Shown here in pieces: positions 9,293 through 44,249 of a stretch of DNA of 64,000 nt; the first letter of the stretch is position 1; every line of letters begins with the position of its first letter. Position numbers and translations under genes: made by a program. Where the stretch lies: contig NZ_MASU01000001.1 of NCBI RefSeq assembly GCF_003202235.1, positions 124,001 through 188,000 of the forward strand, given 5' to 3'. Under the pieces are notes generated by a model. That model did no database searches and was not told the origin of the DNA. It saw nothing but the letters and a program-made list of their open reading frames with translations. This DNA is from Prauserella flavalba (lineage in GTDB: Bacteria > Actinomycetota > Actinomycetes > Mycobacteriales > Pseudonocardiaceae).

Positions 9293-10201
9293 TCAGACGT
9301 CCCCTTCGGACAGTCCGAGCGTGGAGGCCAGCTCGAACAGCGGCTGGTAGGTCTGCTCGTCGACCTGCGCGAGCGGGCCGGGCGGGTCGACGTCGAGGAA
9401 AGCGCCGACCTTCGCGACATCGGCCGGGCTGAGCTCCAGCAGTGCCGTGCGCACGCGCTCCTTGAACGCCGGGTCGAGGTTGCCGCGCACGGTGATCGGG
9501 TCGTTCGGGATCGGCTCGGACTTCCACAGCTGCCCGAACCTCGACTCGTCGAAGCTGCCTTCCGCCTTCGCGGTCGCCAGCTGCTGGCTGTTGATCTGGG
9601 CGGCGTCCACCTTGCCGTTGGTGAGCGCGAGCAGCGCCTCGGGATGCCCGCCCGCGTAGTCGATCTTCACGTCGGAGTCCTTCAACCCCGCCTCGCGCAG
9701 CGCGTAGCGCGGCAGCGCGTCGCCCGACGTGGAGCCGACGCCGCCGAGCGCGAGCGAACGGCCGCGCAGGTCGGCGACGGTCTTGATCGGCGAGTCCTTC
9801 GGCACCCAGATGCCCGCGGTGTAGGTGGTGAGCTTCCCGTTCGCGTCGGCGAAGGACACCAGCGGCTCCGCGCCGGCCTGCTGGCTGGCGAAGACGTAGC
9901 CGAGCGGGCCGAACTGCGCGATCTCCAGCTGGTCGTTGCGCATCGCCAGCACCTCGGCCGAGTAGTCGTCGACCACCTTCAGCTCCACCGGACAGTCCAA
10001 AGTGGTCTGCAATGCCTTCGCCAGCACCTGGTAGGCGGGCGTGAGCTTGGCCGGGTCCTCGTAGGGCTCGACGCCGAACCGGATCGTGCCGCCGGGGCAC
10101 GTCGCCGCGTCGGCGGACTCGGAGTCCGAACCGCAGGCCGTGAGCGAGAGCGTGAGCAGTGCCGCCGCGCCGAGCGCGACGAAGCGGGGACGGGAGGACA
10201 T
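9293..10201 (-). CDS. phnD: Phosphate/phosphonate-binding lipoprotein (PhnD-like)
   Basis: 302-residue solute-binding protein of the PhnD family. An N-terminal lipoprotein signal peptide ends in the lipobox LTAC (about 19-22, Cys becoming residue 1). The mature part has the PhnD folding pattern: FGVEPYEDP near the start, then LGGVGSTSGDALPRYALREAG in the ligand-binding hinge region. It captures the phosphonate outside the membrane for PhnCE. Lies 19 bases downstream of the FAD oxidase gene with an SD-like AAGGAGAA before the ATG. Confidence 0.92.
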   Translation of the reverse strand: MSSRPRFVALGAAALLTLSLTACGSDSESADAATCPGGTIRFGVEPYEDPAKLTPAYQVLAKALQTTLDCPVELKVVDDYSAEVLAMRNDQLEIAQFGPLGYVFASQQAGAEPLVSFADANGKLTTYTAGIWVPKDSPIKTVADLRGRSLALGGVGSTSGDALPRYALREAGLKDSDVKIDYAGGHPEALLALTNGKVDAAQINSQQLATAKAEGSFDESRFGQLWKSEPIPNDPITVRGNLDPAFKERVRTALLELSPADVAKVGAFLDVDPPGPLAQVDEQTYQPLFELASTLGLSEGDV

Positions 10202-39076: not shown

Positions 39077-39472
39077 TCAGCTCGCGTGCGCCGCGGACAC
39101 CTCGTCCGCGGCGCACGCGGGCGTCGAGTACACCTCGATCTTGTGCCGGATGAGCCGCTGGTGCTCACGCAGCTGGGCCAGCTGGTCCTCCACGCGGCGG
39201 TCGTGGGCGCGCAGCACCGCGAGCCGCTCCTCCCGGCATGACTCGCCACCGCGCAGCAACCGCACGAAGCGGAGCATGTCGGCGATCGGCATGTCGGTGT
39301 CGCGAAGGCAGCGCAGCAGGTGGAGCAGGCCGAGGTCGGCGTCGGAGTAGCGGCGACGGCCGCCCGGCGTGCGCTCGATGGGCTCCAGCAACCCGATCTT
39401 CTCGTAGTAGCGCAGCGTGTCGATGCTGAACCCGGTCTTCTCGGTGACCTGCGCCGGAGAGTAGAAGCTCAC
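39077..39472 (-). CDS. MerR-family regulator with NmlR/AdhR-type cysteine
   Basis: 131 residues. N-terminal MerR winged helix (3-70; TGFSIDTLRYYEKIGLLEP) and dimerisation coiled coil (75-115). Cys55 in LLRCLRDTDMP matches the conserved Cys of aldehyde- or electrophile-sensing NmlR/AdhR proteins; there is no metal-binding CxxC loop. Its own promoter (39481-39511) and that of the aldehyde oxidoreductase operon carry the same operator, so it likely activates both in response to an aldehyde. Convergent with GDPD. ATG at 39472, only about two bases from the predicted transcription start. Confidence 0.85.
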   Translation of the reverse strand: MSFYSPAQVTEKTGFSIDTLRYYEKIGLLEPIERTPGGRRRYSDADLGLLHLLRCLRDTDMPIADMLRFVRLLRGGESCREERLAVLRAHDRRVEDQLAQLREHQRLIRHKIEVYSTPACAADEVSAAHAS

Positions 39473-39480
39473 GCATTCCA

Positions 39481-39511
39481 GAGTGACACCTGGAGTGCGC
39501 TCCAGGTCAAG
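39481..39511 (-). promoter_or_regulatory. MerR-type promoter with ACCTGGAG-CTCCAGGT operator (merR)
   Basis: On the minus strand: -35 TTGACC (39511-39506), 19-base spacer holding the perfect dyad ACCTGGAG/CTCCAGGT (39489-39508 overlapping the -35), and -10 CACTCT (39486-39481). Long 19-base spacers with the dyad inside are the hallmark of MerR-activated promoters. The start codon is at 39472, so the message is nearly leaderless. Duplicated at 44219-44249. It overlaps the end of the zinc-ribbon gene. Confidence 0.8.
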
Positions 39512-39692
39512 ACCGCTGACACACTCCGGCGCCGGGACGTCCCCTGGTCACCACGCCCGCACCGGTCACGCGTACCTGCAACGAGCCGCACGCACACCGC
39601 GTCCAGACGGTTTCGCCCTCGGGCGTGCGGTGCCGCGAGACGATCTCGTAGACGTCCGAGTCGGGCCAGCCGCAGAAGGGGCAAGTGCTCAT
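39507..39692 (-). CDS. Small zinc-ribbon protein
   Basis: 61 residues with CPFCGW at the N-terminus and RCACGS in the middle, two knuckles that can bind zinc. Function unknown; the rest is basic. ATG at 39692; an upstream ATG at 39719 would add about nine residues. Divergent from lysR; its end overlaps the merR operator. Confidence 0.6.
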   Translation of the reverse strand: MSTCPFCGWPDSDVYEIVSRHRTPEGETVWTRCACGSLQVRVTGAGVVTRGRPGAGVCQRS

Positions 39693-39766
39693 GAATCCAG
39701 CATGGGACCGTTCGAGCATGCAGGTCCAGGTTGGATTTGTGGACGTGACTGTGAAGAATCGACTTC

Positions 39767-40666
39767 ATGATTGACCTGCGCAGGCTCAGCGTCCTGCGGG
39801 CGGTCGCCCACTACGGCACGGTCACCGCCGCGGCACAGGCGCTGCACCTCACCCCCTCGGCGGCGTCCCAGCAGATCCGCCAGCTCGGCCGCGAACTCGG
39901 CGTCGCACTGCTCGAACCGAACGGCCGCAAGGTGCGGCTCACCGGTGCCGCGCTCGGCCTGCTCTCCCACGCCGACGCGATCGAGGCGCGCTGGCGGCAG
40001 GCCGAGGCGGAGCTGCACGCGACCGGCACCGAGCCCTCCGGCGTGCTGCGGATGGCGGGTTTCCCCACCGTGATGTGCCGTTTCCTGGGGCCGCTCACGG
40101 TCCGGCTGCGCGAGCGGTATCCCGGGCTCGCCGTGCGGTTGCGGGAGACCGAGACGCCGCGCTGTTTCGACCTGCTGTTCAACGGCGACGTGGACCTCGC
40201 CGTGGTCGAGGCGATCCCCGGCAACCCGGCCGCGGGCGACCAGCGTTTCGACCAGCAGCCGCTGCTCGACGACCCGTTCGACCTGCTGCTGCCCGGCGAC
40301 CACCCGCTCGCCGGGCGGCGCTGCGTCGAGCTGTCCGAGGTCGCGGGCGAGCCGTGGATCATCGGTGCGGAAGGCGACGCGTGGCGCGCGCACGTGCTCG
40401 CGGCGTGCTCGGCGGCCGGGTTCAGCCCGAACATCGCCCACGAGGCGTGCGACGCGAGCCTCGTGGCGAGCCTGGTGGACCTGGGCCTCGGCGTCGCGCT
40501 GTTTCCCCGGCTGGCCCAGTTCCAGCCCGACGTGGACGTCCGCCGTATCGAGGTGAGCGGCACCGCGCCGTCGCGCCGGTTCCTCACGTGCACGCGCCGC
40601 GGCGGCAGGGACGCCCCCGCCGTCGCGGCCGCGGTCGAGTTACTGCACGAGGTCACGGCTCGCTGA
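39767..40666 (+). CDS. LysR-family transcriptional regulator
   Basis: 299 residues. N-terminal winged helix (1-60; GTVTAAAQALHLTPSAASQQIRQLG) and type 2 periplasmic-binding ligand domain (90-295). One TTA Leu codon near the 3' end (40640-40642). Its end overlaps that of the paoC-like gene by 14 bases. Target unknown; both the aldehyde oxidoreductase and the zinc-ribbon gene are neighbours. Confidence 0.92.
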   Translation: MIDLRRLSVLRAVAHYGTVTAAAQALHLTPSAASQQIRQLGRELGVALLEPNGRKVRLTGAALGLLSHADAIEARWRQAEAELHATGTEPSGVLRMAGFPTVMCRFLGPLTVRLRERYPGLAVRLRETETPRCFDLLFNGDVDLAVVEAIPGNPAAGDQRFDQQPLLDDPFDLLLPGDHPLAGRRCVELSEVAGEPWIIGAEGDAWRAHVLAACSAAGFSPNIAHEACDASLVASLVDLGLGVALFPRLAQFQPDVDVRRIEVSGTAPSRRFLTCTRRGGRDAPAVAAAVELLHEVTAR

Positions 40667-42773
40667 GCACGGTGGCCAGGCGGATCGGCAGGTTCCGCAC
40701 GCGCCTTCCGGTCGCGTGGAACACCGCGTTGGCGATCGCCGCCGCGACGCCCACCGCGCCGAGCTCCCCGATTCCCTTGGCGCCCAAGGGGTTCGCGAAC
40801 CGGTCGTCGTCCTCCACGAACGCGGCGTCGAGGTCGGGCAGGTCGGCGTTCGCGGGCAGCAGGTACCCGGCGAGGTTCTTCGACACGAACCGTCCGAGCA
40901 CCGGGTCCACATCGGAGTGTTCGAGCAGCGCCTGCCCATAGCCCCACGCGAACCCGCCGGTGAGCTGGCTGTGCGCGGCGAGCGGGTTGAGGATCCGGCC
41001 CGCCGCGTACCGGGTGACGGCCCGCGACAGCCGCACCACGCCGAAGTCGGCGTCAACCCGCACCTCGGCGAAGATCGCGCCGTAGGTGTGCATCGAGTAC
41101 CGCGCCGACCGGCCCGCCGCGAGCGCGTCCTCCTCGGGCGACCAGCGGCCCTCGGCCTCCAGCTCGGTGAGCCCCGACTCGGCGAGCAACCCGGCCAGTG
41201 GTTGCCCCTGCCGCCCGTCGAGCTTGGCGAGCACCTCCCGCGCCGCCGCCTGCACGGCCGAACCGAGCCCCATCGCCGACATCGAGCCCATCGTCCCGGC
41301 GTGCGGAGGGAAGCCGGAGTCGCCGTGGCGCACCTCGACGTCACCGGGGTCGCAGCCCAGCGTCTCGGCGACCACCGCCTGGACCATCGCGGGCAGTCCG
41401 GTGCCGATCTCCTGCATGCCGGTCTCCACGACGATCCGGCCGTCCGCACCGATGCGGACCTTCGCCGACGAGGGGGCGCGGAAGGTGTCCATCGTCGCCG
41501 CGGCGACGCCCCAGCCGACGAGGTCGTTGCCCTCACGCATCGACCTCGGCTCGGGCGAACGCTCCGCCCAGCCGAACCGCTCCGCGCCCTCACGCAGGCA
41601 CTCCACAAGCCTGCGCGAGGAGAACGGCAGGCCCGTCATCGGGTCCACGTCCGGCTCGTTGCGCAGCCGCAGCTCCACCGGGTCGATCCCCAGCTCGTAC
41701 GCGAGTTCGTCCATCGCCGACTCCAGCGCGAACATGCCCGGGCCCTCGTGGGGCGCCCGCATGGGCGTAGGGCCGGGTCGGTCGACACGCTGTACGCGCA
41801 TGCGTGTCTCGATGGCGGGGCTGGCGTAGAGCCACGTGGAGGAGTGCGTGGTGTTCTCCAGGTAGTCGACGGCACGCCCGCTCGCGTTGACGCTGTCGTG
41901 GCGCAGCGCCGTGAGCCTGCCGTCGCGCGTCGCACCGAGGCTCACCGTCTGCCGGGTCGCGGGCTGGTGCCCGGAGAGCGTGAACATCTGCGCCCTCGTC
42001 ATCACCAGCCGCACCGGCCTGCCTGAGACCTTCGCCGCCGCGGCGGCGAGCGGCAGGTGCGGCCACACGTAGCCCTTCGCGCCGAAACCGCCACCGGTGA
42101 ACGGGCACACCACGCGCACGTGCTCGGGCGGCAGGGAGAACAGCGCCGCCATCGTCTGCTGCGCCACCGCCACCGACTGCACCGAGCTGTGCAGCACGAG
42201 CTGCTCGCCCTCCCACCACGCGAGCGTCGCCGACGGCTCGATGGGGCTGTGGTGCCGGTCGGCCGTCGTGTAGGTGGCGGTGACGGTCACGTGGGCCTCG
42301 GCCAGCCCGGCGCCGGCGTCGCCCTTCTCCTCGTCGGTGCCGCCGAGCACGTGCCCGCTGTGCGGCACCACGTCCTCGGCCTCGCCGAACGCGATCGGTT
42401 CCCGCACGCCGGTGTAGGTCGCGCGCACCCGGCTCGCCGCGTACTGGGCCTGCTCCAGCGTCTCGGCGAGCACGATCGCGATCGGCTCGCCCTCGTAGTG
42501 GATCTCCTCGGCCTGCAGCGGTAGCGCCGGGTAACCCAGCGGCGGCGACGGCAGCTCGGCCAGTGTCGGCAGGTCCGCGCGGGTCAGCACGGCCGCCACC
42601 CCGGGACAGTCCCGTGCCTCCGCGGCGTCCAGCTCCGCCAACCGTCCATTCGGGACGGTCGCGGAGACGAGCGCCGCGGCCAGCGCCGACTCGGCGGGCA
42701 CGTCGGCCGCGTACCGCGCGGCGCCGGTGAGCTTCGCGGGCCCGTCGGGCCGCACGAGTCCCTCAGTCGTCAT
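40653..42773 (-). CDS. Molybdenum aldehyde oxidoreductase, large subunit (PaoC/YagR-like)
   Basis: 706 residues, close to the PaoC/YagR length. Mo-pterin (MCD-type) binding GGGFGAKG and RAPHEGPGMFALESAMDELA, TGMQEIGTGLP and the catalytic Glu (about 670) in GAKGIGELGAVG. These are the active-site features of the xanthine-oxidase family. The arrangement of a 2Fe-2S subunit, an FAD subunit carrying extra Cys and this subunit is that of PaoABC rather than xanthine dehydrogenase. ATG at 42773 overlaps the FAD subunit stop (ATGA). Confidence 0.9.
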   Translation of the reverse strand: MTTEGLVRPDGPAKLTGAARYAADVPAESALAAALVSATVPNGRLAELDAAEARDCPGVAAVLTRADLPTLAELPSPPLGYPALPLQAEEIHYEGEPIAIVLAETLEQAQYAASRVRATYTGVREPIAFGEAEDVVPHSGHVLGGTDEEKGDAGAGLAEAHVTVTATYTTADRHHSPIEPSATLAWWEGEQLVLHSSVQSVAVAQQTMAALFSLPPEHVRVVCPFTGGGFGAKGYVWPHLPLAAAAAKVSGRPVRLVMTRAQMFTLSGHQPATRQTVSLGATRDGRLTALRHDSVNASGRAVDYLENTTHSSTWLYASPAIETRMRVQRVDRPGPTPMRAPHEGPGMFALESAMDELAYELGIDPVELRLRNEPDVDPMTGLPFSSRRLVECLREGAERFGWAERSPEPRSMREGNDLVGWGVAAATMDTFRAPSSAKVRIGADGRIVVETGMQEIGTGLPAMVQAVVAETLGCDPGDVEVRHGDSGFPPHAGTMGSMSAMGLGSAVQAAAREVLAKLDGRQGQPLAGLLAESGLTELEAEGRWSPEEDALAAGRSARYSMHTYGAIFAEVRVDADFGVVRLSRAVTRYAAGRILNPLAAHSQLTGGFAWGYGQALLEHSDVDPVLGRFVSKNLAGYLLPANADLPDLDAAFVEDDDRFANPLGAKGIGELGAVGVAAAIANAVFHATGRRVRNLPIRLATVLSEP

Positions 42774-43744
42774 GCCGCCGCCTCCTGGATCGCCCGCACG
42801 GCCGCGCGCTGCGCGAGCGTGACCTTGTACTCGTTGCCAGCCAGCGGCCTCGCCTCGGTGAACGACGCGGCGAGCGCGGACCGCAGCGCGGTGGTGTCGC
42901 CGAGGTCCACGCCTACGAGCGCCGACTCCGCCGCCGTCAGCCGCCACGGCCGGTGGGCGACTCCGCCGAGCGCGAGGCGCACACCGGTGAGTGTGCCGCC
43001 CTCGGCGCGCACGACGGCGGCCACCGACACCACGGCGAACTCGTACGACGCGCGCTCACGCACCTTGAGGTAGTACGAACGCTCGGCGCCGCCGGGCACC
43101 TCCACGGCGGTGATCAGCTCCCCGGCTCGAAGCTCGTTGTGCCGCAACGGTTCGTCGCCGGGCAGCCGGATGAACTCCGAGGCGGGAATCCGCCGCTCAC
43201 TCCGTTCGCCACGCACCACCACGACGGCGTCGAGCGCCGCGAGCGCCACCGCCAGGTCGGAGGGATGGGTGGCGACGCACCGGTCGCTCCAGCCGAAGAT
43301 CGCCGCCGCGCCCGTGTCGCCGTGCAGCGCCGAACACCCGGAGCCCTCCGCGCGCTTGTTGCACGGAACCGCGGTGTCGGCGCGAAAGTACGGGCAGCGC
43401 GTGCGCTGCATGAGGTTCCCGCCGATCGAGGCCATGTTGCGCAGCTGCGCCGACGCCGCCAGCAGCAGCGACTGCGCGAGCACCGGGAACCGCGCCGCCA
43501 CGATCTCGTCGGCCGCGACGTCGCTCATCCGCGCGAGCGCCCCGATGCGCAACACCCCATCGGCGAAGCCGACGTCCCGCAGCGGCAGCCGGTTGATGTC
43601 CACCAGCCGCCGGGGCTCCTCGATGCCCTCCTTGAGCCAGTTGACCAGCTCTGTGCCGCCCGCGATCGGCTGCGTGCCCGGCTCGCCGAGCGCGGCCAGC
43701 GTCTCCTCCAGCCCCCTCACCCGCGTGTAGTCGAACGTCCTCAT
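42770..43744 (-). CDS. Aldehyde oxidoreductase FAD subunit with 4Fe-4S motif (PaoB/YagS-like)
   Basis: 324 residues. CO-dehydrogenase flavoprotein fold (FAD loops IAGGTELVNWLK and IGGNLMQRTRC). Four Cys in the PaoB pattern: Cys117, Cys128 and Cys137 in RCPYFRADTAVPC...GSGC, and Cys156 in SDRCVATHPSD. These bind the extra 4Fe-4S cluster found in PaoB/YagS and absent from ordinary xanthine dehydrogenase FAD subunits. ATG at 43744 overlaps the small-subunit stop. Confidence 0.9.
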   Translation of the reverse strand: MRTFDYTRVRGLEETLAALGEPGTQPIAGGTELVNWLKEGIEEPRRLVDINRLPLRDVGFADGVLRIGALARMSDVAADEIVAARFPVLAQSLLLAASAQLRNMASIGGNLMQRTRCPYFRADTAVPCNKRAEGSGCSALHGDTGAAAIFGWSDRCVATHPSDLAVALAALDAVVVVRGERSERRIPASEFIRLPGDEPLRHNELRAGELITAVEVPGGAERSYYLKVRERASYEFAVVSVAAVVRAEGGTLTGVRLALGGVAHRPWRLTAAESALVGVDLGDTTALRSALAASFTEARPLAGNEYKVTLAQRAAVRAIQEAAA

Positions 43745-44211
43745 CGGACCGCCGCCTTCGACACCGCGGCCACGATCTGCGGGTACGCCGCGCAGCGGCA
43801 GAGGTTGCCGCTCATCCACTCCCGGATCTCGTCCGGCGAGCCCGCGTGCCCCTCGGCGATGCAGCCGACCGCGGACAACACCTGACCCGGCGTGCAGAAC
43901 CCGCACTGGAAGGCGTCGCTCTCGAGGAACGCCCGCTGCACCGGGTGCGGCTCGCCGTCCTCGCCCGCCAGCCCCTCGATGGTGGTGATCTCGGCACCGC
44001 CCACCGTGACCGCGAGCGTCAGGCACGACAGCACCCTGCGGCCGTCGACGAGCACCGTGCAGGCGCCGCACTCGCCCCGGTCGCAGCCCTTCTTCGTCCC
44101 CGTCAGCCCGACCCGGTCGCGCAGTGCGTCGACCAGCGTGGCGCGGGGATCGATCTCGATCTCGCGTTCTTCACCGTTGACCGTCAGCGACAGCCGTGTG
44201 TCCTGGTTCAC
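43741..44211 (-). CDS. Aldehyde oxidoreductase 2Fe-2S subunit (PaoA/YagT-like)
   Basis: 156 residues. Plant-ferredoxin cluster Cys43, Cys48, Cys51 (CDRGECGAC) and Cys63, and the second cluster Cys103, Cys106 (CGFC) with Cys138, Cys140 (LCRC). Unlike E. coli PaoA there is no twin-arginine signal, so the enzyme is probably cytoplasmic. GTG at 44211 is 8 bases downstream of the predicted -10, so the message is essentially leaderless. Confidence 0.92.
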   Translation of the reverse strand: MNQDTRLSLTVNGEEREIEIDPRATLVDALRDRVGLTGTKKGCDRGECGACTVLVDGRRVLSCLTLAVTVGGAEITTIEGLAGEDGEPHPVQRAFLESDAFQCGFCTPGQVLSAVGCIAEGHAGSPDEIREWMSGNLCRCAAYPQIVAAVSKAAVR

Positions 44212-44218
44212 GTGAACC

Positions 44219-44249
44219 AGCGTGCTTCCTGGAGCGCACTCCAGGTCAA
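44219..44249 (-). promoter_or_regulatory. MerR-type promoter with CCTGGAG-CTCCAGG operator (paoABC-like)
   Basis: Minus strand: -35 TTGACC (44249-44244), 19-base spacer with the dyad CCTGGAG, 4 bases, CTCCAGG (44228-44245), -10 CACGCT (44224-44219). Identical layout, spacing to the start codon and -35 to the merR promoter at 39481-39511; only the dyad's 4-base centre differs (CGCA here, TGCG there). Confidence 0.8.

Follow-up and report, generated by a model that had tools for sequence, protein, structure and literature searches.

Thiol-dependent formaldehyde dehydrogenase is the classical target of the MerR-type regulators NmlR and AdhR. MerR proteins bind the 19–20 bp spacer between the -35 and -10 elements of their promoters and activate through DNA twisting (PMC9909328); MerR operators are also the subject of PMC5045206. 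One cysteine (Cys54 in Haemophilus influenzae NmlR, Cys52 in Bacillus subtilis AdhR) is reported as necessary for the formaldehyde response of both regulators in PMC4776306, where the H. influenzae mutant is cited as submitted. Here we analyse a related locus in a stretch of 64,000 nucleotides from the actinobacterium Prauserella flavalba (positions 124,001 to 188,000 of contig NZ_MASU01000001.1, hereafter the window), in which a merR gene with a matching cysteine, Cys55, and three genes for a molybdenum oxidoreductase resembling PaoABC of Escherichia coli (paoABC, collectively pao) are preceded by the same promoter and operator. The sequence comparisons make it fairly probable that this locus belongs to a branch of an actinobacterial NmlR/AdhR-type MerR regulon that usually acts on reductase genes, and to which pao has been added in this strain. 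Our literature searches, mostly without subscription journals, turned up neither this operator nor a regulon of F420-dependent enzymes under an NmlR-like MerR protein, nor a MerR-controlled Pao enzyme.

One operator at several genes of the same genome

An initial annotation of the window had described the same promoter before merR and paoA, and this is indeed the case: both sites, 4.7 kb apart, consist of TTGACC, a spacer of 19 bp carrying the dyad CCTGGAG-N4-CTCCAGG, and CAC[T/G]CT (table 1). A MerR-type palindrome thus occupies a -35/-10 spacer of the characteristic length at both genes, and the proposal that this is the MerR geometry agrees with PMC9909328. The start codon had been placed 8–9 bases beyond the -10 element; the near-leaderless distance stands, while the exact value needs correcting to the 8th base at both promoters. 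At merR an additional ATG, out of frame, lies 3 nt past the -10.

The suggested genome-wide search for the promoter pattern changed the picture of a regulon with two promoters. In the genome of 8.09 Mb the loose pattern TTGACC-N19-CACKCT has six matches (one for the reversed-pattern control), of which only the merR and paoA sites contain the dyad. The 22-mer TTGACCTGGAGYGCRCTCCAGG, derived from these two sites, has four exact matches (merR, paoA and two further sites) and one with a single mismatch, with none in the control; since base composition predicts only 7.7e-6 exact matches, a chance origin of the shared operator can be ruled out. One further operator (C2:727296) stands directly before a second MerR gene, which is truncated by the contig end. 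Another (C9:122368) precedes an F420-dependent LLM oxidoreductase, assigned by its family model (TIGR03560, 311 bits, cut-off 231), and a third (C5:162404) an F420-dependent PPOX oxidoreductase, assigned in the same way (TIGR03618, 135 bits, cut-off 79); a weaker site with two mismatches (C8:273069) faces an aldo/keto reductase. Operators therefore number at least five in this genome, which also has a second MerR, and the genes beside the operators are two merR, paoA, LLM, PPOX and aldo/keto reductase genes. Four PaoB-like genes occur among the candidates scored (E<=1e-60), and the window copy alone sits at these operator sites.

Two other matches to TTGACC-N19-CACGCT, C1:59584 and C6:162428, were set aside as members, their dyads being different when compared by eye, and are possibly sites of other MerR proteins. 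The genes that follow them, again named by eye, are regulator/ATPase-like (L001) and alcohol dehydrogenase-like (L006), respectively.

Between merR and lysR in the window lies a zinc-ribbon-like open reading frame (CPFCG...C-C) of 61 residues (39507-39692, minus strand), which is present in six of the seven syntenic relatives checked. Its end overlaps the -35 element of merR, so that read-through may also reach merR.

The Cys55 regulator and its recurrent targets

That the window regulator is NmlR/AdhR-like, as initially proposed, is borne out by family and structure comparisons: NmlR ranks first among 17 NCBIfam families, below its cut-off, and H. influenzae HI_0186 is among the nearest solved structures. 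Cys55 does align with the NmlR cysteine of 5d8c and 5e01. We compared 80 loci from named genomes, the best 80 of 531 MerR relatives found, 73 of them actinobacterial. Residue 55 is C in 75, R in three, K in one and a gap in one, and it is C in every one of the 73 actinobacterial loci.

Among 150 genomes of the family searched for MerR (G numbers denote genomes and L numbers loci), 17 have a MerR at E<=1e-25, and orthologues of the window merR, 63–94% identical, occur in eight of the 150 besides our own. The operator is found directly before merR, with 0–1 mismatch, in all eight Pseudonocardiaceae loci in this identity range, and the layout of orthologue loci with the operator matches, as judged by eye, the merR promoter of the window. 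Across the wider set it is present (at most three mismatches, on the merR strand, within 90 nt, either reading of the palindrome being accepted) in 63 of 80 loci, all 63 being actinobacterial. An in-frame start codon lies 13–19 nt past the 22-mer in 44 of these 63 loci and not so in the other 19, the commonest distance of 16 nt corresponding to 7 nt beyond the -10; the near-leaderless start noticed in the window would thus be a common property of merR transcripts among relatives.

Assigning every site with at most three mismatches to its downstream gene gives 94 sites in 67 of the 80 loci: merR follows 45 of them, an aldo/keto reductase 35 and an LLM oxidoreductase 13, one is unassigned, and paoA follows none. 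Besides merR, the recurrent targets are therefore aldo/keto reductases and F420-dependent LLM oxidoreductases, and not pao, which the initial annotation had taken as the defining target. The operator likewise precedes the LLM gene in 25 of the family's 30 best LLM loci (at most three mismatches, 220 nt upstream), and it is present in two of the 30 best PaoB loci (with 0 and 1 mismatch, no more than 1.3 kb ahead of paoB), although these sets are unmatched, the LLM loci being 63–100% identical to our own protein and most PaoB loci 50–56%; among the six PaoB loci of at least 66% identity, two have the operator. With identity thresholds chosen after the lists were seen and only the best candidates per genome scored, LLM (at least ~78%, 10 genomes) and merR (at least 63%, nine genomes) share six of the 150 genomes (p ~1e-6), or five, of eight and nine, when our own genome is left out (p ~1e-5); pao (at least 66%, six genomes) and merR (nine genomes) share one, our own (p 0.31).

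Some single sites fall outside these classes. In G140 (L166, G140:C77) the operator stands before a CMD-family gene, and in two relatives an operator-like site with TGGACC (L039 and L040, site at 1501) precedes a gene that looks transporter-like by eye.

A second MerR clade with the same operator

The operator is more widespread than the window regulator: at no more than one mismatch of a 21-mer it occurs in 85 of the 150 family genomes, compared with 17 that have a window-like MerR. Thirty operator loci taken from these sites, read strand-aware and with genes named by eye, are followed by a MerR of a second clade (MSYSIAEAARRSG...) in 18 cases, by genes resembling aldo/keto reductases in five and short-chain dehydrogenases in three, and in the rest by two transporter-like genes, one LLM-like gene and one small-domain gene; the sites of 12 chosen genomes agree with this, with PPOX and CMD-family genes in addition. 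Proteins of the second clade mostly have T-K/R-LRTTGMP at the position of the cysteine. A tree of 47 proteins separates the Cys55 proteins of actinobacteria, as a clade of 30 rows (support 99/97), from the second clade (11 rows, 96/97), two rows of which have Cys at this position; three long-branched Cys-bearing rows (L108, L265 and L266) fall outside the 30-row clade, and their placement is unsure. The recognition helices of the two clades are near-identical (SIDTLRYYE). The second, mostly Cys55-less clade probably shares or cross-regulates targets with the first.

It is conceivable, if unlikely, that the operator before paoA is worked mainly by the second clade, or by both clades, and that the Cys55 merR, though close by, has no particular bearing on pao. 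The autoregulatory operator is common to both clades, and two genomes with pao but without a close Cys55 MerR are informative in this context. G017 has the operator, and G064 a degenerate form of it, before pao, and none of their MerR hits (E<=1e-9) exceeds 43% identity with the Cys55 MerR; Cys occupies the position in neither of the two hits of G017 and in one of three in G064 (35% identity, no operator nearby), and the exact 21-base operator is present at a second-clade merR in both. Given an operator common to both clades and pao in these genomes without a close Cys55 MerR, either protein, or both, may work at paoA. The proximity of pao to the Cys55 merR in our own genome, 4.7 kb away, nevertheless speaks for the Cys55 protein, as does the -10 element of paoA, CACGCT, which resembles CACTCT of merR and not the TA-type -10 of second-clade and LLM promoters.

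The oxidoreductase and the history of its locus

The identification of the oxidoreductase as PaoABC-like is supported. Its genes encode, in this order, the small [2Fe-2S], the FAD and the molybdenum subunit, and the FAD subunit includes the cysteine stretch of PaoB, aligned with 5g5g_B and 5y6q_B. PaoC is the best of 13 NCBIfam families for the large subunit (593 bits, short of the cut-off of 1180) and PaoA the best family for the small one (200 bits, short of 322). The large subunit keeps the motif GELG, which we take to be the surroundings of the expected catalytic glutamate. The small subunit lacks the N-terminal extension of E. coli PaoA, the profile match starting at position 49 of 218, and with this leading part absent the enzyme is probably cytoplasmic. 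No paoD follows directly after paoC, whose end overlaps the opposite-strand lysR (no search for a chaperone was made in the rest of the genome). By its family, the enzyme would be expected to act on an aldehyde.

The order purD, GDPD gene, merR, lysR, purA is syntenic in six of the eight loci of close relatives; L097 is missing the lysR match only, and L100 has none of the neighbours purD, GDPD, lysR and purA. The synteny of lysR with merR is independent of the presence of pao and no operator was found at the gene, so lysR was rejected as a part of the system. Within our own locus and the eight close relatives, our own genome is the only one with an intact pao in the interval from lysR to purA. 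The closest relative found, G084 (MerR 94% identical), keeps merR and its operator, and only 29 residues of the PaoA end remain there; other genes, including exporter-like and TetR-like ones (by eye), occupy the place of paoABC (L093, 10117-15391), and from these remnants we read G084 as having lost pao. In G053, a genome of the window's genus (L283, G053:C22:813000-832000, near 9421), what is left of merR, preceded by an operator-like site (TTGGCC...), lies between intact neighbours. G064 has pao between the GDPD gene and purA without merR there.

The promoters of pao vary. Those of G064 and G161 have a degenerate dyad (TTGCCTGGAGCGGACTCCA) in a 19-bp spacer to TAGCCT, with ATG 8 nt on, and G017 has an intact dyad with TTTACC and TAGCGT; in G146, G093 and G130 no dyad was found before pao. 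The dyad core is thus present in four of seven close pao loci, in full in our own genome and G017. At E<=1e-110, pao of the window type occurs in one of four genomes of the window's genus, in two of 19 of the genus of G064, and in at least one of 394 class-wide genomes (a lower bound, about five candidates being scored per genome). The aldehyde enzyme seems to have entered the regulon at the level of lineages.

These distributions bear on the system originally envisaged, in which a Cys55 MerR and two promoters form a dedicated aldehyde response with paoABC as the main target. It would explain why operator, geometry and start-codon spacing are alike at two promoters only 4.7 kb apart, it is compatible with Cys55 at the NmlR position and with the chemistry of Pao, and we nonetheless regard it as improbable. 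The same operator occurs at least five times in the genome and, in the unmatched sets described above, far more often at LLM than at PaoB loci, even though two of the six closest PaoB loci have it; the closest relative keeps merR and operator without pao; and the flanks of the 80 related merR loci, some of which end at contig ends, contain no match to the pao proteins at E<=1e-12. Together with the single genome shared by pao and merR, of six and nine, this led us to reject a conserved merR–pao pairing. A reading in which promoter recombination left the paoA operator behind without a present role is very improbable: few relatives have an operator at pao and G084 retains just the 29-residue end at this place, but promoter elements, spacing and start codon are all intact in the window and the dyad core also precedes pao in G017, G064 and G161.

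Table 1. Features of the merR–pao locus (positions within the window).
Feature	Position	Strand	Details
merR, 131-aa NmlR/AdhR-like regulator with Cys55	39077..39472	-	Pfam MerR_1 60 bits; NCBIfam NmlR 90 bits
merR promoter/operator	39480..39510	-	TTGACC-TGGAGCGCACTCCAGGTGT-CACTCT, 7 nt, GTG at 39472
LysR regulator	39767..40666	+	convergent with paoC; syntenic with merR in relatives; no operator found at the gene
paoC-like molybdenum subunit, 706 aa	40653..42773	-	NCBIfam PaoC 593 bits; PDB 5y6q_C, 5g5g_C
paoB-like FAD subunit with extra cysteine stretch	42770..43744	-	PDB 5g5g_B 249 bits, 5y6q_B 247 bits
paoA-like [2Fe-2S] small subunit, 156 aa	43741..44211	-	Pfam Fer2_2/Fer2; PDB 5y6q_A 240 bits, then PaoA 5g5g_A 172 bits
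paoA promoter/operator	44219..44249	-	TTGACC-TGGAGTGCGCTCCAGGAAG-CACGCT, 7 nt, GTG at 44211

A possible role in carbonyl stress

Most likely the system is a MerR regulon for electrophile or carbonyl stress with a core of reductases, which pao has joined in some lineages. The Cys55 MerR would bind CCTGGAG-N4-CTCCAGG within the 19-bp spacer and repress or hold the promoter until a reactive carbonyl or another electrophile modifies the thiol of Cys55; the modified protein would then twist the DNA such that RNA polymerase can start. Its targets would be its own, near-leaderless merR and, across actinobacteria, F420-dependent LLM oxidoreductases and aldo/keto reductases. The F420 and aldo/keto enzymes would remove reactive carbonyls by reduction, and since pao also carries the operator in this strain, aldehydes could here be oxidised as well as reduced.

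Several observations weigh against assigning the locus to a reductase-centred branch of the NmlR/AdhR regulons under Cys55 control. With 90.3 bits the window MerR stays well below the equivalog cut-off of NF041849 (175), for which reason we call the regulator NmlR-like only, and the second-clade MerR outscores it slightly on the same model (96.5 bits). F420 use by the LLM and PPOX proteins is predicted from family models. Thiol-dependent formaldehyde dehydrogenase stands before none of the identified operators of our own genome, sites with more mismatches not having been followed. The operator has no trace, at up to four mismatches, in stretches of 15–19.5 kb at eight Pseudonocardiaceae loci whose MerR is 43–56% identical; it is absent, at up to three mismatches, from 13 of the 80 loci, and in nine of the 73 actinobacterial loci neither strand has a site close to merR. 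The operator is, moreover, common to the Cys55 MerR and the second clade, and in G053 the Cys55 gene is broken, yet operators at the second MerR and at PPOX persist.

A more general proposal, which we put forward tentatively and hold to be somewhat short of an even chance, would accommodate the two clades together: a pair of paralogous MerR proteins, of which one has the NmlR-type cysteine and the other mostly lacks it, would read one operator in an actinobacterial electrophile or carbonyl-stress regulon with often near-leaderless transcripts, where F420 oxidoreductases and aldo/keto reductases replace the thiol-dependent AdhC arm and single lineages add enzymes such as the molybdenum aldehyde oxidoreductase. 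If this is true, the thiol-sensing logic of NmlR/AdhR-type MerR proteins would control F420 enzymes, and a physiological trigger would be at hand for families to which only a subfamily number could be given here (TIGR03560 LLM and TIGR03618 PPOX). The system would also provide a clean case of one operator shared by two paralogous regulators that differ in the presence of the sensing cysteine, and another of a molybdenum enzyme entering a regulon via a shared operator. The operator itself is distinctive enough for genome-by-genome prediction of targets.

Comparison with known systems

The enzyme of the window can be placed between two described relatives. With the periplasmic PaoABC of E. coli, whose structure 5g5g is together with 5y6q the nearest solved one, it shares the subunit order [2Fe-2S], FAD, molybdenum, the cysteine stretch of PaoB, and PaoC as the best model of its large subunit; unlike PaoABC, it has a small subunit without N-terminal extension, no paoD right after paoC, scores below the NCBIfam cut-offs and a promoter of the MerR type. 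The aldehyde oxidase of PDB entry 5y6q, presumably from Methylobacillus and hence from an organism group different from that of the window, ranks first among solved structures for the small and large subunits, matches the FAD subunit about equally to PaoB, and likewise has a small subunit without the leading extension.

The regulator and its operator resemble NmlR of H. influenzae and Neisseria and AdhR of B. subtilis in the MerR fold and in the cysteine at the position of Cys54 and Cys52, respectively. Their regulons, too, are alike in the operator within a 19–20 bp spacer, in autoregulation or a divergent target, and in targets of carbonyl chemistry, and the CMD-family target in G140 recalls yraC of the AdhR regulon of B. 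subtilis. The present regulon differs in that the NCBIfam NmlR cut-off is missed, that merR is mostly near-leaderless, and that a target of the adhC/estD type was not identified at the own-genome operators followed; its targets are, instead, F420-dependent oxidoreductases, aldo/keto reductases and, in this strain, a molybdenum aldehyde oxidoreductase.

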